Shown in pieces: positions 2,612 through 47,460 of a DNA stretch of 48,419 nt. The stretch spans positions 1-48,419 of the IMG/VR virus record IMGVR_UViG_3300035703_000138. One strand, written 5' to 3'. The notes under the pieces were generated by a model. That model had not been told where the DNA came from. It saw nothing but the letters and a program-made list of their open reading frames with translations, and did no database searches. Position 1 is the first letter of the stretch; the number at the start of each line of letters is the position of its first letter. A program made the translations under genes and the position numbers. This DNA is from a virus.

Positions 2612-2619
2612 TCCTGTTC

Positions 2620-2635
2620 CATAGCCTGAGCTATG
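2620..2635 (+). repeat. CATAGCCTGA junction repeat, copy 1 (forms a hairpin with the gpW start codon)
   Basis: The sequence reads CATAGC-CTGA-GCTATG, a perfect 6-bp stem with a 4-nt loop. It sits 8 nt after the terL stop, and the ATG of the gpW-like gene forms the last three bases of the right arm. The 10-mer CATAGCCTGA recurs exactly at 4251, 9505 and 22905, always at a stop/start junction on the plus strand. It resembles in concept the start-associated sequences described in cluster K mycobacteriophages. Its function here is unknown. Confidence 0.6.
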
Positions 2636-2833: not shown

Positions 2834-4260
2834 TGGGAAAGCGCAAAGACCTTGAAGATGCTCTGAAGGCAACCAGGATGCAGCTGGCTATAGAGCACCT
2901 GCGATCCTTTGAAGCGGCCAAGCTGAGCCGGCGTACGGACAACTGGCTGACCAGTAACAAGGGCCCGAATGCTGACCTGCGGCTGTCGCTGCAGCGGATG
3001 GTGGCCAGGCATCAGGACCTGGTGGATTCAGACCCGTGGGCCAGTAAGGCGGTTGCAGTGGTCGTCAATAACTGGGTGGGCGATGGCATTGCCGGCGCTC
3101 CAGTTGGCGCTACACGCAAATATGCCGATGGCTACCGCGAATGGGCAGAGAGTACGGACTGCGACTGGACCGGTCAGCACAACTTCTACGGGCTGCAGTC
3201 GCTGATTGCTCGAACGGTAGCGGTGCGCGGCAGCTGCCTGGTGCGACGGCGGTTTGATGAAAGCCAGCTGGCGCGTGGCCTCAGTCCGCTGCAGCTGCAG
3301 GTGATGGAGCCGGACTACCTGGACTTGAGCAAGGACGATGGCGCCAAGATCAGGTTTGGCAAGCAGTACACCGATAGCGGGAAGCTGGAAGGGTATTGGA
3401 TACGGCTGTCGCATCCGGGTGAAAGCGACTGGACCGGATCTATCAGGGTGCAAAGCGAGTTCGTCAACGCCTCCGAGATCTGTCACGTGTACGACATGCG
3501 CCGGCCTGGCCAGGCAACCGGTGTGCCGTTTGGCGTGAGTGCGCTGCTGAAGCTGCGAGACGTAAGCGACCGTGACGCGGCGCAGCTGCTGAAGGACAAG
3601 CTGGCGGCGTGCTTCATGGCATTCGTGTCAGATGCTGACGCTGACGCTGTGGCCAGTGGTACGGAGCTGCTCGACACGCTGGAGCCTGGCGTGATTGAGA
3701 ATCTGCCACCTGGTAAGTCGATCACGTTTGCGCAGCCGCCTACGTCAGGCGACTACGTGGCCAATCAGAAGTACCACCTGCTGAGCATTGCGCAGGCGTA
3801 TGAGATCACGTATGAAGCGCTGACTGGCGATCTGGGCAACGTCAACTTTTCCAGCGGCCGGATGGGCTGGATGGAGATGCGCAGGGCCGTTGCTCGCTGG
3901 CGATGGGGGATCATGATCCCCCAGCTGCTCAACCGCGTCGCTGGCTGGTATCGAGACGCTGCAGCGATATCAGGCACCGGCCGCGCCACTGCACGGTTTG
4001 AGTGGACGCCGCCGATCACCTGGCTGGTAGATCCGGCCCGCGAGATCCCGGCTTACGTCGATGCAGTGCGTGCTGGCTTCATGAGCTTGTCCGAGGTGCA
4101 GCGGATGCTCGGGTACGTGCCCGAGCTGGTGATCCAGGAGCTTGGCGCTGATATGGATCGCGCAAGGGCTGCAGGGTTGAAATTGGATGTAGACCTAGCA
4201 TCAACAACTGGCACTGTTCGGCCGATGCCTATGGATGCAAATGCACAGTCCATAGCCTGA
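2833..4260 (+). CDS. Portal protein (lambda gpB family)
   Basis: Dodecameric ring at the unique capsid vertex through which DNA enters and leaves. Length 475 aa, slightly shorter than lambda gpB (533 aa). Typical lambda-family portal features are an early DNA- or clip-associated segment with SDPWASKAVAVVVNNWVGDG, and FSSGRMGWMEMRRAVARWR near the end of the core domain. I chose ATG 2833 (MGKRKDLED) rather than the in-frame GTG at 2830, because it gives the usual TGATG overlap with gpW. The last bases form the second CATAGCCTGA junction repeat. Confidence 0.92.
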   Translation: MGKRKDLEDALKATRMQLAIEHLRSFEAAKLSRRTDNWLTSNKGPNADLRLSLQRMVARHQDLVDSDPWASKAVAVVVNNWVGDGIAGAPVGATRKYADGYREWAESTDCDWTGQHNFYGLQSLIARTVAVRGSCLVRRRFDESQLARGLSPLQLQVMEPDYLDLSKDDGAKIRFGKQYTDSGKLEGYWIRLSHPGESDWTGSIRVQSEFVNASEICHVYDMRRPGQATGVPFGVSALLKLRDVSDRDAAQLLKDKLAACFMAFVSDADADAVASGTELLDTLEPGVIENLPPGKSITFAQPPTSGDYVANQKYHLLSIAQAYEITYEALTGDLGNVNFSSGRMGWMEMRRAVARWRWGIMIPQLLNRVAGWYRDAAAISGTGRATARFEWTPPITWLVDPAREIPAYVDAVRAGFMSLSEVQRMLGYVPELVIQELGADMDRARAAGLKLDVDLASTTGTVRPMPMDANAQSIA

Positions 4261-9502: not shown

Positions 9503-9504
9503 TT

Positions 9505-9514
9505 CATAGCCTGA
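9505..9514 (+). repeat. CATAGCCTGA junction repeat, copy 3
   Basis: Exact 10-mer 2 nt after the stop of the gpU-like gene and 18 nt before the next ATG (9533). The spacer holds a CTGCA/TGCAG inverted repeat (about 9520-9531). Same element as at 2620, 4251 and 22905. Confidence 0.55.
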
Positions 9515-22590: not shown

Positions 22591-22909
22591 CATTACCTAC
22601 ACCTGGGTCATTGCTCAGCTGGACTGCGCCCCACAAGAAGACAACTTAGAGAACGTGGTTAAAACCATTCACTGGCGCTACCAGGCCACGGATGGCACTC
22701 ATACCGCTGATTGCTACGGCAGCATCGGCGTGGGTGCGGTGGATCCTGACGACTTCACTCCCTACGCCGAGCTGACCAAAGATCAAGTGGTTGCCTGGCT
22801 TGAAGCACAGCTTGATGTCGATGAGCTAGAGCGGAACCTTGCTACACAGCTGGCCATGCTGGCTAATCCGCCAGTCACGTCGCCTGCGTTGCCGTGGCAA
22901 CTTGCATAG
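22583..22909 (+). CDS. DUF7936-like protein (cyanophage-type)
   Basis: A 108-aa protein. ATG 22583 (MSDITYTWVIAQLDCAP) is chosen over an upstream in-frame ATG at 22541 because it gives coupling with the previous gene. The pattern TYTWVIAQLDC ... VVKTIHWRYQATDG ... FTPYAELTKDQVVAWLEAQL ... LANPPV matches small proteins common in cyanophages and their hosts, encoded near fibres. Their function is not established. The gene ends in the fourth CATAGCCTGA repeat. Confidence 0.72.
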   Translation: MSDITYTWVIAQLDCAPQEDNLENVVKTIHWRYQATDGTHTADCYGSIGVGAVDPDDFTPYAELTKDQVVAWLEAQLDVDELERNLATQLAMLANPPVTSPALPWQLA

Positions 22910-22914
22910 CCTGA
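22905..22914 (+). repeat. CATAGCCTGA junction repeat, copy 4
   Basis: An exact 10-mer whose TAG is the stop codon of the DUF7936-like gene. It lies 16 nt before the GTG at 22931. Same element as at 2620, 4251 and 9505. Confidence 0.55.
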
Positions 22915-25468: not shown

Positions 25469-26419
25469 CTACGCCGCAAACAAGCTCAGCTGCTCCGTCA
25501 CCCCCATCGGCTCCACCGGCCTGATTACCGGCCGCTTTGATGGCACCACATCCCTAATCATCTGCATCGCCTGCAGCTGCTGTTGCAGATACCGCAGCCG
25601 GCCATCAACACGTGCCGGTTTCATCCCAAGCTGCGTAGCAATCTCAGAGCGCTCCACCGCTGGACCATCCAATCCCCACGCCATCGCCAGCAACATCTGA
25701 TCACGGCTTGGCAACGTCGCCATCAGCTCGCGCAGCTGCTCGGCCTGCTGGTACCGCTCGTCCTGGGCTTCATACTCTTCAGGCGTTGAATCCCAACAGG
25801 CCACCACATCACCTAGCTCTAGCCCGTCGTCACTGATCACCTGATCCAGGCTGGCAACAGGCCTAGCGTTCACCAGTAGCTGATCCATCACCCGCTCAGA
25901 CACCCCAAGCTCTGCAGCGATCTCATCCTGCGTCGGCTCACGCCCCAGCTCCATCGCCAGCCGTCTGCGGATTGGACCGAGCTTCCCAAGGTGCTGGCTG
26001 TGGCTGCCGGGAATCGCCACCAGCCTGGTGTGATGATCAGCCCAGTGACCTACCGCCTGACGGATCCACCAGTAGGCATAGGTGCTGAACCGATACCCCC
26101 TGGTGGGATCGAACCGTTCTACCGCTCGGATCAATCCCTCGTTGGCGGCCTGCACCAGATCATCAATGCTGTGGTCCTTGGCCATGCGGTGGCAGTGCTT
26201 TGACACATACGCCACCGCAAGCCGTAGGTTTCCCTTCACAAACCTATCTTTCGCCCGCTTGCCGCGACGTTTGATGCCAGGCGGGCAACTATCTGGGAAT
26301 CCCGGATGGTTCAGCCAAGCTTGTACCTGATTGCCCAGCTCGATCTCCTCAGCAGGCGTGAGCAGCGGGATGCGGCCAATCTGATCAAGCCACCAACTCA
26401 GTCCAGATGGCGGTGCCAT
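25469..26419 (-). CDS. Sigma-70 family RNA polymerase sigma factor (second of tandem pair)
   Basis: 316 aa. Region 1.2-like IGRIPLLTPAEEIELGNQVQ; region 2 with NLRLAVAYVSKHCHRMA, DLVQAANEGLIRAVERFDPT and GYRFSTYAYWWIRQAV (core and -10 binding); region 3 with LAMELGREPTQDEIAAELGV; region 4 with LPSRDQMLLAMAWGLDG and SEIATQLGMKPARVDGRLRY, weaker than usual (no canonical VSRERIRQIE). The IPLLTPAEEIELGNQVQ style is that of cyanobacterial group-2 sigma factors. It is 4 bp downstream of the other sigma gene, so the two are co-transcribed. Altered region 4 suggests an unusual -35 or activator requirement. Confidence 0.88.
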   Translation of the reverse strand: MAPPSGLSWWLDQIGRIPLLTPAEEIELGNQVQAWLNHPGFPDSCPPGIKRRGKRAKDRFVKGNLRLAVAYVSKHCHRMAKDHSIDDLVQAANEGLIRAVERFDPTRGYRFSTYAYWWIRQAVGHWADHHTRLVAIPGSHSQHLGKLGPIRRRLAMELGREPTQDEIAAELGVSERVMDQLLVNARPVASLDQVISDDGLELGDVVACWDSTPEEYEAQDERYQQAEQLRELMATLPSRDQMLLAMAWGLDGPAVERSEIATQLGMKPARVDGRLRYLQQQLQAMQMIRDVVPSKRPVIRPVEPMGVTEQLSLFAA

Positions 26420-26423
26420 GGCA

Positions 26424-27311
26424 TCACGCAGCGCAGTTGAGTTGATTGCGCATCCGCATCAATGCTCTTCGTTCACGCTGACGGATTCGCTCACGGCTCA
26501 CGCCAAGCGATGCACCAATCGCTCGTAACGTGGTCGGCTTGCCTTGCAGGTACCGCTCACGGATGATCATCCGATCCATCGGGTCCAGCTGCTGCAGGAT
26601 TGCAACGCTGCTTTGCAGTAGGTCGCCGTGCTCATCCATGAAGCTGCTGTCTGTAGCTTCAGCAGCGACCTGATCTAGGTACGTGGACGCCTCGCTGCCA
26701 CGGTTACCGCTGTCGCTGCGCAGGTTCTGGTCCAGGCTGATCGCCGGTTGCGCATGAGCCAGCGTCGCTTTCAGCGTTTCCATGTTGCAGCCGACATGCT
26801 CAGCAATCTCAGCTAGCTGCGGCTTCCGGCCGGTCTTCATGACCTGCTCGTCGCAATAGATGGATGCCTTTCGCAATAAGGTCAGGTTGTGGCACGGGAG
26901 GCGGATCATCCGCGCCTGGCTCTCAATCGCCCTGTTGATGCTCTGCCGTATCCAGTTGAACGCGTAGGTGCTGAACTTGTACCCACGTGAGGCGTCGAAC
27001 TTGGTGATGGCCCGCTGCAGGCCAATCAATCCCTCCTGCACAAGGTCCTCAACGGTGAGGTGTGGCTCGGCACGCTTGGTATGGCGCTTGGCAATCAGCA
27101 CCACCAGTCGAATGTTGGACAGGAAGAACCGGTCCCATGCCCGCTTGCCACGGCGCTGGATTGCTCGCTGTTTGGCCGTGGGCGTGGCCAGGTCCTTGAT
27201 TGCCAGCCAGGCCTGAACGTCGCGGCTCAGCGTGATCTCCTGTTCAGTCGTCAGCAGCGGGTAGGCGCGGCTTTGCTGCATCAACCAGTCGAGTGGTTCG
27301 GCCATCGGCAT
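26424..27311 (-). CDS. Sigma-70 family RNA polymerase sigma factor (first of tandem pair)
   Basis: About 295 aa. Start ATG 27311 (or 27305); the longer frame from 27452 would cover the promoter-like element at 27327. Region 1.2 RAYPLLTTEQEITLSRDVQ; region 2 NIRLVVLIAKRH, DLVQEGLIGLQRAITKFD and GYKFSTYAFNWIRQSINR; region 3 GRKPQLAEIAEHVG; region 4 LDPMDRMIIRERYLQG and GASLGVSRERIRQRERRAL. All parts of a group-2 sigma are intact. It would redirect host RNA polymerase to phage promoters. Closest in style to cyanobacterial sigma factors. Confidence 0.92.
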   Translation of the reverse strand: MPMAEPLDWLMQQSRAYPLLTTEQEITLSRDVQAWLAIKDLATPTAKQRAIQRRGKRAWDRFFLSNIRLVVLIAKRHTKRAEPHLTVEDLVQEGLIGLQRAITKFDASRGYKFSTYAFNWIRQSINRAIESQARMIRLPCHNLTLLRKASIYCDEQVMKTGRKPQLAEIAEHVGCNMETLKATLAHAQPAISLDQNLRSDSGNRGSEASTYLDQVAAEATDSSFMDEHGDLLQSSVAILQQLDPMDRMIIRERYLQGKPTTLRAIGASLGVSRERIRQRERRALMRMRNQLNCAA

Positions 27312-27326
27312 CCGTCGATCGGCTGC

Positions 27327-27346
27327 ACCATAGCGGTGCGGATGCA
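27327..27346 (-). promoter_or_regulatory. Promoter-like 20-mer upstream of tandem sigma genes
   Basis: The minus strand reads TGCATCCGCACCGCTATGGT, one of five near-identical 20-mers here (others 27700, 37059, 43241, 46390). The right end resembles an extended -10 box. The likely transcript start, about 7 nt downstream, is 10-15 nt from the sigma start codon. This spacing supports a promoter; no -35 consensus is obvious. Confidence 0.55.
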
Positions 27347-27475
27347 CATTGCCACCGCTTTGCCGCAGATCCGTGTCTCCGTGTTGACGCGAGCCTGTGC
27401 CCGTTGCCACGGTTGTGGGGTGGACCGGCGGTGCGTCAACACCCCGGCCCATGACCGATCCATTGCTCTGGACCG

Positions 27476-27699: not shown

Positions 27700-27719
27700 T
27701 GCATCCGCTTTGCTATGGT
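27700..27719 (+). promoter_or_regulatory. Promoter-like 20-mer upstream of the Gp157-like operon
   Basis: TGCATCCGCTTTGCTATGGT, member of the five-copy family. The extended -10-like TGCTATGGT ends 24 nt before ATG 27743, a normal 5' leader length. The left part overlaps a GATGCGGTTTTGCATC inverted repeat (27690-27705) that could serve as an operator. Confidence 0.55.
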
Positions 27720-27742
27720 GCGGTCGGCCATCACGCCATGCC

Positions 27743-28902: not shown

Positions 28903-29047
28903 GCGGCCGAAGCTCATGACGCTCCGCGAAGCGTTGCTGTCACGGTTTAAGAGCTACGAGGCCGAGGTTCTATTGGGTCGCCATGAACCCCTACCGCCAC
29001 GGCCCGCAGAACAGCCTGAAATATCACACGCTGTTCGTCTGTCGTAG
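28886..29047 (+). CDS. Possible small protein overlapping integrase 3' end
   Basis: A 53-aa frame (MAASAERPKLMTLREALLSRF ... EISHAVRLS) coupled to the upstream membrane protein gene. Its last 101 bases lie antisense to the 3' end of the integrase gene. It could be genuine, or its tail could run into integrase DNA by chance. If attP is at the integrase 3' end, integration would replace its C-terminus. Confidence 0.35.
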   Translation: MAASAERPKLMTLREALLSRFKSYEAEVLLGRHEPLPPRPAEQPEISHAVRLS

Positions 29048-30269
29048 CATCACTGAAGAAGAGCGGATCCTGCAGGGCCTTGTAGAACCTTGGATCAATC
29101 TCAGGTTTTGCATCCCGTTGCAGTGCTTCAATCCGTTGCCGTTGCTCAGCCACGGCTGCTGACATGGCGCGGTTGTCTGGATTCCTCGCTGCCATCCGCT
29201 CCATTAGCTCCAGTTCATCAGCCATCGCGGCAATTGCTGGATTGAGCTGGTGGTGACTGGCGACAGCGGACGACAGCCGATGAGCTTCAGCGATACACGC
29301 ATCAATCACAACCGGCAGGATCCGCTCTTCGCGGGCACCACCGCGAGCATTGCAGAGGCGATGCCGGCACCGCCACCACGCAACACCAGCTGACGTGTTG
29401 CGGCGCATCAGATGGCCACAGCTAGCGCACCGCAGTAGGCCGGTTAGAGCGTGCCGGGTCTCGGTGCCGACTGCTCCACCCCTAAATCGGTTTCGTGGTC
29501 GCTGCAGCAGTGCCGCCAGTTCACGCCAATCGGCCTCGCTGATCAGCGCTGGATGCTGGTCGTAGTACATCTCACCCCAGACCTGCCCCCAGCCTTTGCC
29601 GGTGCTGCGGTCGCGGTGGTGGCCAATGTGGCCACGGATCACTGGATTGCAAAACCAGTTCTGCAGGTTGCAGGCTGATGGCGTCCACTCGCACCACTGC
29701 GTCATCCACCTGGCAACACCGGTGAAGCTGCCCTGTATGCGCAGCTCTTCAATCACCCGCAGCGCTTGCGGCCAGTGCTCAGGGTGTGGCTGCAGTCTGT
29801 GATCGGGACCGCCCTGGTAGCCAAACGGCTTGCGCCGGCGCAAGTGCCGACCCTCGGCGCGGTAGACGCTGAACTGGCGCCGGAGCCGTAGCGACAGCAT
29901 CCGGCTTTCCATCTCCGCAAGGCCGGTCTGCAGGCGGGCCATCAGGAATCCCTGTGGCGTGGCGGTCTCGATGGTGCCGCCGTCCAGGGCACGGACGCTG
30001 ACGCTGTGCGCCTCACACTGGGCCAGTAGAGCGTCGGTGTATGCCGCGTCACGGCCAAGCCGATCCACTCTGGTCACAAGCAGCTCTGTGACCTGACCGG
30101 CTCGCACCATTGCCATCAGTTCCAGCAGCCCATCGCGGTCAGTGCTGCGGCCGGTCTCAATGTCAGTGATGACCTGGCTGCAGCCGGCAGCCTGAAGGCG
30201 CGAGACCTGTGCTGGCAAGCTCCCGGCCTGATCGTCGGTACTCACCCTGGCGTAGCCAACAGCGGGCAT
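28947..30269 (-). CDS. int: Large serine recombinase (phage integrase)
   Basis: 440 aa. Resolvase catalytic domain at residues 1-140: VGYARVSTDDQ with nucleophile Ser10, VTRVDRLGRDAAYTDALLAQ, then the long E helix (ARLQTGLAEMESRMLSLRLR). Recombinase domain about 150-260 (RRRKPFGYQGG). Zinc ribbon about 275-310 (CASCGHLM ... CRHRLC), then a coiled coil (MADELELMERMAARNPDNRA) as used to control direction. It integrates and, with a directionality factor, excises the prophage. At 440 aa it is near the small end of the family but all parts are present. Confidence 0.9.
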   Translation of the reverse strand: MPAVGYARVSTDDQAGSLPAQVSRLQAAGCSQVITDIETGRSTDRDGLLELMAMVRAGQVTELLVTRVDRLGRDAAYTDALLAQCEAHSVSVRALDGGTIETATPQGFLMARLQTGLAEMESRMLSLRLRRQFSVYRAEGRHLRRRKPFGYQGGPDHRLQPHPEHWPQALRVIEELRIQGSFTGVARWMTQWCEWTPSACNLQNWFCNPVIRGHIGHHRDRSTGKGWGQVWGEMYYDQHPALISEADWRELAALLQRPRNRFRGGAVGTETRHALTGLLRCASCGHLMRRNTSAGVAWWRCRHRLCNARGGAREERILPVVIDACIAEAHRLSSAVASHHQLNPAIAAMADELELMERMAARNPDNRAMSAAVAEQRQRIEALQRDAKPEIDPRFYKALQDPLFFSDATTDEQRVIFQAVLRAVAVGVHGDPIEPRPRSS

Positions 30270-37031: not shown

Positions 37032-37058
37032 CAGTAGCGGTTAGCGGTGGCTTGTGCC

Positions 37059-37078
37059 ATCCTAGCAATGCGGATGCA
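37059..37078 (-). promoter_or_regulatory. Promoter-like 20-mer upstream of the RecT-like operon
   Basis: The minus strand reads TGCATCCGCATTGCTAGGAT, with extended -10-like TGCTAGGAT. The predicted start falls about 20 nt before ATG 37031. A TGCA-N4-TGCA dyad (37075-37086) overlaps its upstream edge and may be an operator. Confidence 0.6.
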
Positions 37079-40879: not shown

Positions 40880-41138
40880 GTTGCCTTCATGCACAAGAGG
40901 GATAGAGGAGTGTCGTGATTGCCAGAGTTGTCTTCACGCACGAGTGGGATCAAGGCCTGGGTGAGCTGCTGGCGGTTGAGCAGTGCAGTTGCCTCCATGC
41001 CAGCGTGTGATAAAGGCCAGCATCAGGTGGTGCGGGCACGTCATCTTCACGGTTGCCTCCATGCCCTAGTGGGTTAAAGGATCGCCAGCAGCTCGGACAG
41101 GTTGCTGTTCGTTGCCTCCATGCCTGAGTGGGACAAAG
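40880..41138 (-). CRISPR. Degenerate CRISPR-like repeat array downstream of tnpB-like gene
   Basis: Five 28-bp units start at 40880, 40927, 40988, 41052 and 41111. On the plus strand they begin GTTGCCTCCATGC and end GTGGGNNAAAG (variants in each), with 19, 33, 36 and 31 bp of unrelated sequence between them. The three units nearest tnpB share the first 14 bases exactly; the two farthest units are the most divergent, as at the trailing end of CRISPR arrays. On the minus strand (tnpB sense) each unit ends GGCAAC. It could instead be a set of iterons or operators for the HTH gene. No cas1 or cas2 is seen. Confidence 0.45.
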
Positions 41139-41196
41139 ACATGATCAACACTGAGATCCCAGCAAAAACCAGCCTCTAAGTCTTGGGCGTGAAGGT

Positions 41197-41284
41197 GGCC
41201 CCCATGGGGCCAGATGCCACCGGAGTGGCTTCCTGCTGACACCGCAAGCGGCCAAAAGCAGGCGTTTATGGTCTCCAGCTCCAA
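41197..41284. repeat. Three-hairpin inverted terminal repeat, left copy (3' of tnpB)
   Basis: Reading outside to inside: hairpin 1 GGCCCCCATGGGGCC (41197-41211); hairpin 2 GCCAC-CGGA-GTGGC (41216-41229); hairpin 3 arms CCTGCT (41232-41237) and AGCAGG (41257-41262), followed by GCGTTT. The inverted copy at 42990-43078 keeps the linkers (GATG, CTTCCTGCTGACACC, GGCCAAAAGCAGGCGTTT) but has different stem bases that still pair. On the minus strand this lies 21 nt after the tnpB stop, where TnpB omega-RNA scaffolds are found. Confidence 0.7.
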
Positions 41285-41302
41285 CGCCGGCGACCGTCAT
41301 CA

Positions 41303-41313
41303 GATCATACTAC
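41303..41313. repeat. 11-bp direct repeat at the tnpB stop codon
   Basis: GATCATACTAC; the identical 11-mer is at 42808-42818. On the minus strand GTAGTATGATC provides the tnpB stop here (GTA GTA TGA) and the start codon there (ATG ATC). The reading frame is thus bracketed exactly by direct repeats. Confidence 0.7.
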
Positions 41314-42813
41314 GAAAAGCCCCAGTTGTGTCGCTGATTGCGCTGAGGCCTTTCGCTTGGCTGGGCGCTTCCCTCGCGCCACTTTCGCGCTACCGCACGC
41401 AGTCAGTACCAACTGGTGGTCGCCGGGAACCGCAATGGGCCCAGGCGCCATCGGGATCACGGCCTCAGGCCTCGCGCTGCGCAGAATGTTCACGGCAGCG
41501 TTATGGTCCGCGTTCATCGTGTGACCGCAGCTCACGCACTGGAATACCGCCTGGCTCAACCTGCTGGCTTTGTCGATGGTGCCGCAAGCTGGGCAAGACC
41601 TACTGGTATTTGCTGGGTTGACCCGCTCTACTGTTCGGCCCAACTCGGCAGCCTTCGCCTCCAGCATCGTGTAGAGGCCGCCTATGCCAGCGTCGAGCAG
41701 GTTGCGATTCAGGCCAGCCTTAGCTGCTGCGTTGTTAGGCAGATAGCCAGTGCCATCCTCGTTTGGCTTGGCCGCCGGCCTGCGCACCATGTTCGCCAGT
41801 TTCAGATCCTCAACAATCACCGTGTCGTAGGTGCGCAACAGGAATGTGGTGGCCTTGTGCGCAAACAACTTCCGAGTGCGACGGATGCGCTCGTGCAGTT
41901 CAGCGATCTTTGCCACGGTCTTACGCCAGTTGGCTCCTCCCTTCTGCTGCCGGGCCATTTGCTGCTGCAGCCGTTCTAACTTCCGCAAACCTGCAGCCAG
42001 CGCCGCCGGCCCGTCAATGTGTTTACCAGTGCTGGTTGTGAGCGTGTGCTTCACACCAGCATCAACACCGACCGCAAGGGTGGTTGATCGCACCGTTGAA
42101 GTTTCAACCTCGCCCACCAGCAGCAGATACCAGCCGGATGGTTCACGGCAAACCCGAAACGTGCAGACCTGCCGATCGCTGGGCCAGCGCCTTCCGCCAC
42201 GGTTTCCGCGAATCCGGACAGAACCTAAAACGGGCAATCGAGCCACATCGCCATCCACGCTGACCGCTTTCTTGCAGTCTTGGTCGCTTAGCGTGGTGAT
42301 CGGAAACCGCTGCGACTTGAACCGTGGCTGCTTTCGCTTGCCCTTGCGGTATTCCGTCCATGAGGTGGCCAGCGCCTTGAGGGTGCCTCGGATCAGGTTG
42401 TTTGGGCAGCCCTGCAGCTCTGGCCAGTTGGGGTGGTTCTTCTTGGCGAAGAAGGACGCCAAGCTGAAATAGCTGTCGTTGGTCAGCCGTGGCTGCCGGT
42501 ACTGCTGCGGAACTGGGCAGCTCAGGCCAGCGCGGCGGTGCTGCCTGATTGTGCTGTAGGGAATCCCCTGCCAGTTGCCATCCTCGGCTTTCTGCCAGCG
42601 GTACTCCCACGGCACTGGGCAGCATGGCGCCATTGCCTTGTCAGCCTTGTTGTAGTGGCTGAACGCAGAGAGCTCCTGCAGCAGGGCCAATCCATAGTTC
42701 CAGATCCGGCGGTTGAGCAGCAGCCATGCCTCCAGCTGCTGCTCTTGCGCCCGCGTCGGGTAAAGTCGAAACTCAAGTGTGCGCACGGCGCCCACGCATC
42801 TGACTCGGATCAT
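41305..42813 (-). CDS. tnpB: TnpB/Cas12-like RNA-guided RuvC nuclease
   Basis: 502 aa. N-terminus TLEFRLYPTRAQEQQLEAWL and RRIWNYGLALLQEL (TnpB WED/REC style); RGTLKALATSWTEYRKGKRK and QPRFKSQR in the middle; RuvC-I GVDAGVKHT (Asp251); RuvC-II VIVEDLKLAN (Glu335); zinc finger Cys407, Cys410, Cys426, Cys429; RuvC-III NADHNAAVNI (Asp436). All catalytic residues are present. It is longer than typical TnpB (about 380-430 aa) because of an insertion at about residues 50-130. No tnpA is seen. The neighbouring array makes a type V-U-like effector an alternative to a plain TnpB. Confidence 0.88.
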   Translation of the reverse strand: MIRVRCVGAVRTLEFRLYPTRAQEQQLEAWLLLNRRIWNYGLALLQELSAFSHYNKADKAMAPCCPVPWEYRWQKAEDGNWQGIPYSTIRQHRRAGLSCPVPQQYRQPRLTNDSYFSLASFFAKKNHPNWPELQGCPNNLIRGTLKALATSWTEYRKGKRKQPRFKSQRFPITTLSDQDCKKAVSVDGDVARLPVLGSVRIRGNRGGRRWPSDRQVCTFRVCREPSGWYLLLVGEVETSTVRSTTLAVGVDAGVKHTLTTSTGKHIDGPAALAAGLRKLERLQQQMARQQKGGANWRKTVAKIAELHERIRRTRKLFAHKATTFLLRTYDTVIVEDLKLANMVRRPAAKPNEDGTGYLPNNAAAKAGLNRNLLDAGIGGLYTMLEAKAAELGRTVERVNPANTSRSCPACGTIDKASRLSQAVFQCVSCGHTMNADHNAAVNILRSARPEAVIPMAPGPIAVPGDHQLVLTACGSAKVARGKRPAKRKASAQSATQLGLFVV

Positions 42814-42827: not shown

Positions 42828-43007
42828 ATGGCTGAAGGCGTCCGGCTTCAATTCGTGCTTCCCACAGGCCTTGCCGACGCCCTCAAGCGTCGCGCCAAGG
42901 CCGAAGGCCGCACGGTCTCAAACCTGGGCGCCTTCCTCTTGGAGATTGGCCTACGCCAACTCCCTCCACTTGATATGGGTTCGCCTGGGTTGGACCGGGA
43001 GAACTGA
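42828..43007 (+). CDS. RHH DNA-binding protein divergent from tnpB
   Basis: A 59-aa protein: MAEGVRLQFVLPTGLADALK, RRAKAEGRTVSNLGAFLLEI, ending GLDREN. Ribbon strand VRLQFVLP and helix pair fit an RHH fold. Its ATG is 14 bp from the tnpB ATG, so its dimer could repress both genes by binding the gap. The stop overlaps the right three-hairpin repeat. Helix 2 resembles that of the RHH gene at 27476. Confidence 0.72.
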   Translation: MAEGVRLQFVLPTGLADALKRRAKAEGRTVSNLGAFLLEIGLRQLPPLDMGSPGLDREN

Positions 43008-43078
43008 AACGCCTGCTTTTGGCCTTCTGGTGTCAGCAGGAAGTCGCCATGGCGACATCGACCCCCATGGGGGGTCTT
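42990..43078. repeat. Three-hairpin inverted terminal repeat, right copy (3' of RHH gene)
   Basis: Inverted copy of 41197-41284. Hairpin 3 arms CCTGCT (43012-43017) and AGCAGG (43035-43040), hairpin 2 GTCGCC-AT-GGCGAC (43043-43056), hairpin 1 GACCCCCATGGGGGGTC (43060-43076). Homology reaches inward to TTGGACC at 42990. Stems differ from the left copy by paired changes. It starts within the RHH stop codon and may also act as a terminator for that gene. Confidence 0.7.
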
Positions 43079-43240
43079 AACGCAATTTGCTGCCGCCCAT
43101 GCAGGCGATACGCACTTTGGCGCCATCAACAGACCTCGACGGGACCATTGATCAGGCCAGAGGCCAGTTGCACCCACCACCTGGGCCGGGCAGTGGCTGG
43201 CGTGGCCATGGAGCAGGGCTTCAGCGGCAGTGGCCTGCCA

Positions 43241-43260
43241 ACCCTAGCAATGCGGATGCA
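43241..43260 (-). promoter_or_regulatory. Promoter-like 20-mer facing the tnpB locus
   Basis: The minus strand reads TGCATCCGCATTGCTAGGGT. A GTGTCA hexamer lies 17 nt upstream of TAGGGT. It points away from the RHH/primase operon and toward 43078-39236, where the hairpin repeat, tnpB, array, HTH and helicase are all on the minus strand. It might produce a long transcript through the whole locus. Confidence 0.5.
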
Positions 43261-46262: not shown

Positions 46263-46628
46263 TAGCCCAGGGCCAGCCTGGCGGCACGTCACCACTCCAA
46301 ACGCCAGCCACCGCAATGGATCTGCCCCTGGTGAGGCTGCTCACGTCACCACCCCACCAGTGCGCCCCTGCACTGCCCCGGTGCGCTTTCACATCCGCAT
46401 TGCTAGGGTTAAGCCACAGGGCCTCTAGGCTGGCCCTGCCGGGTCGGTCCTACCCGCAAGGATGGACGCGGTGACTGGCTTCTCTGGGGCTGGTCTGAAA
46501 CCGTGACGAAGGCCCGGTTCCCATGGCATAGCCCTGGTCTGCCCACGCAGGCTGGGGCTTTGCTGTTTCAAGGGCTTGAAAGCCCAGTCATGGCAGCCGT
46601 ACCGCAAATCTGCGGTGCGGACCAGACC
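46263..46628. other. Non-coding region with two perfect short palindromes
   Basis: No convincing gene. It holds the plus-strand promoter-like element at 46390, and two perfect inverted repeats: TTTCAAG-GG-CTTGAAA (46566-46581) and ACCGCA-AATC-TGCGGT (46601-46616). Both are typical operator sizes and lie upstream of the KilA-N gene. Confidence 0.45.
46390..46409 (+). promoter_or_regulatory. Promoter-like 20-mer in the leader of the KilA-N gene
   Basis: CACATCCGCATTGCTAGGGT, sharing 16 consecutive bases with the copies at 37059 and 43241 on their strand. It points to the KilA-N gene, 325 nt downstream. The long leader would include all three palindromes. Confidence 0.5.
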
Positions 46629-46734: not shown

Positions 46735-47460
46735 ATGACCGCCCAAGGTCTCAGCGTCCGCATTTGGCAGGACGCTGCCATTGCTCGTCGCAATGACGAC
46801 GGATTCGCCAACGCCACGGCCATGTGCAAGGCCAACGGCAGGGAGTGGTTTACCTATGCAAGGGCAGACCGCACGCAGGAGTACATCACCGCGTTGTCCG
46901 AAGCGATTGGCGTCCCTGCTGACCAGCTGATTCAAACCCGTCAGGGTGGCATCCCTGAACTCCAAGGCACCTGGATCCATCCCCGCCTGGCCGTAGACCT
47001 CGCACGCTGGATCTCTCCACAGTTCGCCGTTTGGATGGATGGATGGTTCCTCGATGCCGTCTCCACACCTCAGCAGCTCAAGCCACGGCGTTCTCGTCGC
47101 CGCAGGCATCAGCCTGTCCTGCCTGAAATCTCAGCCACCTGCGCCTTCTGCGGCAAGCCCTTCCAGGCTCGATCCCTATCCGCTTCCTTCTGTCACGTCA
47201 ACTGCAGAGTGGCCGCTCATCGCTTCCGTAGGCACAACAAGCCATACCCAGCTGCTGTCTCAACAGCCCTGGCGACCGTACCCACACCCACCCTCACCCC
47301 AGGTATCCACGTCGTCGCACGCAGCCAACGCCAAGCCAGCTGGCTATGGGCTGAAGCCGTTGAACGCCACGTAGGCGCCGCACTCATGCTTGACATCGCT
47401 CACGGCCCTCGTACCCAAGCTCAACCCTCCTTCCAGCTGCATCTCCTGCCCACCACCTGA
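46735..47460 (+). CDS. KilA-N domain protein with C-terminal zinc finger
   Basis: 241 aa. Residues about 5-110 form a KilA-N/APSES-like DNA-binding domain: DDGFANATAMCKANGREWFT and GTWIHPRLAVDLARWISPQF, then WMDGWFLDAV. A zinc-finger-like motif follows: CAFCGKPFQARSLSASFCHV with a second Cys/His pair (NCRVAAH). The C-terminal part is unassigned. Such proteins act as antirepressors or regulators. It is flanked by an operator-rich leader and a terminator, so it is separately controlled. Confidence 0.85.
   Translation: MTAQGLSVRIWQDAAIARRNDDGFANATAMCKANGREWFTYARADRTQEYITALSEAIGVPADQLIQTRQGGIPELQGTWIHPRLAVDLARWISPQFAVWMDGWFLDAVSTPQQLKPRRSRRRRHQPVLPEISATCAFCGKPFQARSLSASFCHVNCRVAAHRFRRHNKPYPAAVSTALATVPTPTLTPGIHVVARSQRQASWLWAEAVERHVGAALMLDIAHGPRTQAQPSFQLHLLPTT

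Follow-up and report, generated by a model that had tools for sequence, protein, structure and literature searches.

Tandem sigma-70 family factors in a cyanophage-like genome: a candidate late sigma with a clamp-binding-type tail and a single-box late element

The tandem sigma genes and the early 20-mer

The window, the whole stretch of DNA analyzed here, is a virus record of 48,419 bases whose plus strand carries genes for terminase, portal, tail and lysozyme proteins. Its gene content, together with a serine recombinase gene, is consistent with a temperate cyano-siphovirus. Two sigma-70 family genes lie in tandem at 25469-27311, where the earlier note had placed them; the open reading frames, their position and their strand were confirmed.

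28947-30269, in the window: serine recombinase gene
26424-27311, minus strand: sA, sigma-70 family factor of the A-type lineage, 295 aa from the MPMAEPLDW start
25469-26419, minus strand: sB, sigma-70 family factor of the B-type lineage, 316 aa

The genes are co-directional, with sA first and 4 nt between its stop and the start of sB; a longer in-frame ATG start for sA is also present at 27452. A single promoter appears to drive the expression of both. The cascade previously proposed for the pair (early to late, or lysogenic to lytic) was not demonstrated. Both proteins gave strong sigma-70 family matches in Pfam, NCBIfam and PHROGs (PHROG 351/RpoD-like sigmas in the latter), and regions 2 and 3, responsible for core binding and -10 recognition, scored above cut-off in both (PF04542/PF04539). 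The best NCBIfam match of each is TIGR02997, at 203.8 bits (sA) and 188.5 bits (sB), far below the curated cut-off of 384.5. Comparison with the relative G018 gave dN/dS values of 0.038 for sA and 0.117 for sB; both genes are under purifying selection.

The two proteins are only 34% identical to each other. sA is 44-51% identical to the sigmas of phages that carry an A-type factor alone (A-only phages), and sB is 58-68% identical to the B-only phage sigmas, among them that of the isolate S-LBS1. In a maximum-likelihood tree sA and sB fell in different, well supported clades, which together with the low identity rules out a recent duplication of one sigma; by these comparisons, they belong to two separate cyanophage lineages. 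In the window the pair sits next to the lysozyme region; in A-only and B-only phages this slot holds just one sigma. When 24 other records, some of which may be fragments, were searched with PF04542, 22 yielded one sigma each; the exceptions, each with two, were the window's close relatives G017 and G018.

The window further contains five copies of a 20-mer, TGCATCCGCnnnGCTANGGTG, against 0.28 expected from shuffling:

27326-27346, minus strand: 20-mer TGCATCCGCACCGCTATGGTG, about 15 nt upstream of sA
27700-27720, plus strand: 20-mer upstream of a Gp157-like gene, divergent from the sigma operon
37058-37078, minus strand: 20-mer upstream of a RecT-like gene
43240-43260, minus strand: 20-mer in the early region
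46390-46410, plus strand: 20-mer with 3 mismatches, upstream of a regulator-like gene at 46735

One of the five thus lies at the sigma operon, as the earlier note had pointed out. All five are in the early half of the genome, ahead of early genes. In B-only phages the corresponding divergent interval, from the sigma gene to the Gp157 gene, contains an element whose sequence is different. For these reasons the 20-mers look like early promoters or operators, and TGCATCCGCACCGCTATGGTG is probably the early promoter/operator of the sigma operon. Both the 20-mers and their B-only counterparts look like elements used before any phage sigma exists. The same two observations leave the 20-mers unsupported as sigma-specific promoters and weaken the suggestion that the operon regulates itself through its copy. 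The protein encoded at 46735-47460 matches a PHROG of transcriptional regulators and, weakly, the BstA abortive-infection family.

A TnpB/OrfB-type gene (41305-42813) lies between the arms of long imperfect inverted repeats (41199-41293 and 42981-43073; 76-84% complementary). The near relatives G017 and G018 yielded no such gene, and the unit is a probable recent mobile insertion. Close to it and to helicase-side genes, five 29-nt direct repeats at 40880-41139 (72-83% alike, spaced by 47-64 nt) may be either origin iterons or another array.

Domain structure of sA and sB and the C-terminal tail of sB

Pfam identified regions 2, 3 and 4 in sA, with region 1.2 below cut-off (18.4 against 22 bits), and regions 1.2, 2 and 3 in sB. 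sA lacks a clamp-like tail, and its region 4.2 is canonical (SRERIRQ), with RERQ at the positions of E. coli R584, E585, R588 and Q589. Its description as a canonical factor is accurate for this region and needs qualifying in region 2.3, where the residue equivalent to E. coli W433 is an asparagine:

26955-26957, minus strand: W433-equivalent of sA, residue 119 = N (YAFNWIRQ), region 2.3

The asparagine is shared by sA and all six aligned A-type relatives (7/7), and may alter -10 recognition by A-type sigmas. A candidate A-specific element, GG[CT]AACCTA, at first appeared late-linked in A-only phages and occurs before terS in the window; it failed in 27 new A-clade contigs, with 10 copies on the sigma strand against 2 on the late strand, mostly in one recurring context.

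The only "region 4" hits in sB are weak and sit at residues 159-186, inside region 3, which means that its true region 4 (residues 229-290) goes unrecognized by Pfam. At the four positions named above sB has P/A/D/G, outside the canonical region 4.2 pattern; host sigmas have RERQ and members of the B family have other residues. The second sigma has therefore lost the residues that usually read the -35 element, in agreement with the diverged region 4 of the earlier note.

25562-25624, minus strand: region 4.2 recognition helix of sB, residues 266-286
25478-25492, minus strand: QLSLF clamp-binding-type peptide, sB residues 310-314, at the end of the disordered tail

AlphaFold2 modeling of sB, with an alignment of 24 sequences from which S-LBS1 was left out, predicted helices at residues 238-248, 257-264 and 268-286 (pLDDT about 80), followed by a disordered tail at residues 287-316 (pLDDT <50). 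Foldseek matched the model to housekeeping sigmas in initiation complexes. In the model region 4 of sB keeps its fold, and it probably continues to dock on the beta flap. In most B-family sigmas (e.g., L003:11690-12640) a second conserved segment, QLVLVAV, directly follows region 4; it has been lost in the window clade.

The consensus bacterial sliding-clamp-binding peptide is QL[SD]LF, and known clamp peptides include the shapes QLNLF (UmuC) and QLSLPL (Hda). The tail of sB ends in TEQLSLFAA. The rest of the tail is variable, but 24-25 relatives with identities as low as 36% all have Q310 and L311, and nearly all have L313, a conservation equal to that of the core of region 2. None of 79 cyanobacterial host sigmas has a clamp-type tail. 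Among phage sigmas, the strict clamp pattern was found in 17 of 94 that have lost the -35 residues versus 1 of 61 that keep two or more of them; the looser form QLxL covers the remainder of the B family.

Apart from one class, L101-L103, all sampled B and C classes form one clade (support 100/99), with the tails QLSLF, QLxL, QLALF, QLALPL, QPTLPL and QLTLL; QYALPL also occurs among related classes. The tails of the window clade and of L040, L041/42 and L044/45 read QLSLF, QLALF, QLALPL or QPTLPL, and in many members outside the window clade QLxL is followed by V, E or A rather than F. The unrelated sigma lineage L101-L103 has clamp-like C-termini as well (QFLLPL(DV) or QLPLDL(D)), which suggests that these were acquired independently. 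Other classes with an altered region 4.2 (L051, L064, L085, L229, L199, L316 and relatives) end in different conserved tails, SSSLxWGWG or NPLxDTPLG, and loss of -35 reading thus does not require a clamp tail.

Host DnaE carries an ordinary clamp-type motif, QGNLF, so that the host clamp presumably binds the usual peptides. No clamp or gp33 gene was recognized among the 20 window proteins searched, and the host clamp would therefore serve.

A single-box element at late gene starts

A repeated sequence, CCATAGCCTGA, which does not figure in the earlier note, was spotted at late-gene junctions, where it often overlaps the stop codon of the upstream gene. It belongs to a single-box element, TYCATAGCCTGA, that is present in phages with sB-type sigmas and has no conserved -35 element. 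In the window the following copies were found, and none was found before terS:

2619-2629, plus strand: late element CCATAGCCTGA; the ATG of a 66-codon ORF (2633) follows after 3 nt
4250-4260, plus strand: late element CCATAGCCTGA; the ATG of the head/protease gene (4265) follows after 4 nt
9504-9514, plus strand: late element TCATAGCCTGA; the ATG of a 51-codon ORF follows after 18 nt
22904-22914, plus strand: late element variant GCATAGCCTGA, 1 mismatch

G017, a near relative, carries an exact CCATAGCCTGA in a context matching that of the variant at 22904-22914.

Across 22 genomes, the pattern YC[ACG]TAGCCTG occurred 37 times on the late strand and never on the other, and no conserved -35 was found upstream. 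An open start lay at most 29 nt downstream of 36 of the 37 copies, as opposed to 37% for late-strand positions picked at random. Of the 32 distinct start-linked sites, 15 lie 1-8 nt before the start and 17 lie 18-29 nt before it; intermediate distances are absent. This bimodal spacing fits a -10 box (TAGCCT), the nearer group giving leaderless and the farther group short-leader mRNAs. When 9-mers around mechanically called gene starts were counted without bias in 21 genomes, pieces of the late element ranked with the most widespread ones at late-strand starts, where an unusually large share of all their occurrences was located, and were absent near early-strand starts. T4-type late promoters (TATAAATA) showed no late-strand excess.

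As the pattern had been derived from some of the 22 genomes, further sequences were tested separately. Six genomes outside the discovery set (G012, G003, G005, G008, G007, and G016) gave 9:0 in favor of the late strand and 14 new B contigs gave 6:0. No copy was present in 328 kb from 27 new A-clade contigs, and there was no late bias in more distant phages with other sigmas (5:7). Host contigs had 7 copies in 2.8 Mb of strand. Counted by genome, the element is present in 15 of 17 phages with clamp-type sigmas and in none of five others, excluding one S-CBS1 copy that is not start-linked; the associated p-value of 0.0008 is optimistic because some of the genomes are closely related. Copies are few, 1-6 per genome (in S-LBS1 they lie at 2506, 4677, 8072, 11934 and 19753), and exact ones are lacking in G009 (a B phage) and G015 (tail QPTLPL). 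On this distribution, TYCATAGCCTGA, apparently undescribed so far, is a candidate late promoter of these viruses.

A possible clamp-tethered late sigma and its relation to known systems

We propose that sB is a late sigma that reads only TYCATAGCCTGA and is tethered to the host clamp, a reading to which, taken whole, we give about an even chance. Regions 1.2 to 3, as their conservation suggests, would bind the host RNA polymerase core and open the promoter, and region 4, with its altered residues, would sit on the beta flap without reading a -35 element. Through its QLSLF motif the tail would tether the holoenzyme to host DnaN on replicating phage DNA. Late transcription would then start at TYCATAGCCTGA, with TAGCCT in the -10 position and often with leaderless mRNAs, and the clamp would couple late genes to replication. 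In such a scheme sB would be a natural fusion of the roles of gp55 and gp33, with the host clamp replacing gp45. Any delay in sB action would come from the need for loaded clamps. sA, which ordinarily fills the same slot, would be expressed alongside sB and probably serves other, clamp-independent promoters. We infer the use of TYCATAGCCTGA by sB from the co-occurrence of sigma and element; because this link is drawn among related phages, shared ancestry is a confounder. Of the earlier expectation that the second sigma needs a different -35 element or an activator, the activator fits a clamp-tethered sigma, whereas no conserved -35 accompanies the late element.

In one alternative sB is a late sigma for TYCATAGCCTGA whose QLxL tail has another role, such as binding another phage protein, the beta flap or an activator, and late transcription is not clamp-coupled. 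In most family members the last position does deviate from the strict clamp consensus, and other phage sigma classes carry different conserved tails; yet the tails of the window clade, L040, L041/42 and L044/45 have known clamp peptide shapes, and an unrelated lineage also ends in QFLLPL, which makes this alternative rather unlikely. An ordinary two-step cascade along the lines of the earlier note, in which sA transcribes the middle genes and sB needs another -35 or a phage activator to transcribe the late ones, would suit the tandem co-directional arrangement and the difference in region 4. We consider it quite unlikely, given that there is no -35 information upstream of the late element, that one sigma suffices for phages of either lineage, and that the candidate A-specific element failed in new contigs.

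It is also conceivable that the tandem is a transient recombination product, with sA recently acquired and redundant or being lost. Only three records carry the pair, and dS between the window and G018 is ten-fold lower for sA (0.039) than for sB (0.44), from which a recent exchange of sA follows. With sA intact in 3/3 records and under strong purifying selection (dN/dS 0.04), this history seems unlikely; it would be compatible with our favored explanation for sB. Least probable, to our mind very improbable, is that CATAGCCTGA is a translation or RNA-processing signal and sB acts on other promoters. The position of the element very near start codons, often overlapping the upstream stop, would agree with such a signal, but it is not Shine-Dalgarno-like and is absent from A-clade phages. 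Moreover, distances of 9-17 nt to the start are missing among the start-linked sites, a gap expected for a promoter with +1 about 7 nt downstream, whose transcripts need either no leader or one that can accommodate a ribosome site.

The clamp-tethered reading of sB invites comparison with phage T4, in which a sigma unable to read the -35, a flap-binding co-activator and the sliding clamp drive one-box promoters (PMC2988020, PMC7892883). Fusing gp55 to gp33 artificially yields functional proteins whose dependence on the activator is almost complete (PMC2988020, PMC7892883). At the motif level, sB resembles the gp55/gp33/gp45 system in being a sigma without -35 reading that has a C-terminal clamp-type peptide on a variable flexible linker; the single-box cyanophage element without a conserved -35, a candidate promoter, would be the counterpart of the T4 late promoters with their one -10-like box. 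Unlike its T4 counterpart, sB retains regions 1.2 and 3 together with a region 4 that is folded in the model; the PHROGs matches of sA and sB include no gp55 family, and the cyanophage box is CATAGCCTGA, not TATAAATA.

Coupling of late transcription to replication by the clamp has been described as unique to T4-related phages (PMC2988020), and it is firmly known only from relatives of T4; our search of the open-access literature gave no clamp-tethered sigma beyond the T4-like phages. Somewhat more tentatively than for sB itself, we suggest that a large clade of small cyanophages evolved, independently of T4, a one-chain late sigma that ignores the -35, is activated by the host clamp and reads a new box giving leaderless late mRNAs, to which the window adds the clamp-independent sA. 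If true, the mechanism, needing one protein and the host clamp, would have arisen more than once in a form simpler than that of T4, and may be common.

Among known cyanobacterial and cyanophage factors, host SigA and the group 2/3 sigmas (TIGR02997) differ from sB in their SRERVRQ-type helices and in having no tail. The sigmas of S-CBS1 and S-CBS3 (rpsD4, "group 2") are sigma-70 family members in the same slot, 41-42% identical to sA; each is a single sigma with canonical RERQ, and without a clamp tail or a start-linked late element. The cultured cyanosiphovirus relative S-LBS1 lacks sA, and its sigma (MG271909, SLBS1_A33), annotated only as RpoD-like, occupies the same slot; the passages located in the genome paper (PMC6157547) mention neither the tail nor late promoters. 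This isolate offers a cultured relative in which the candidate late promoter could be tested: its sigma is 61% identical to sB, with the same altered recognition helix and a QLxL tail, and its genome contains five copies of the late element.
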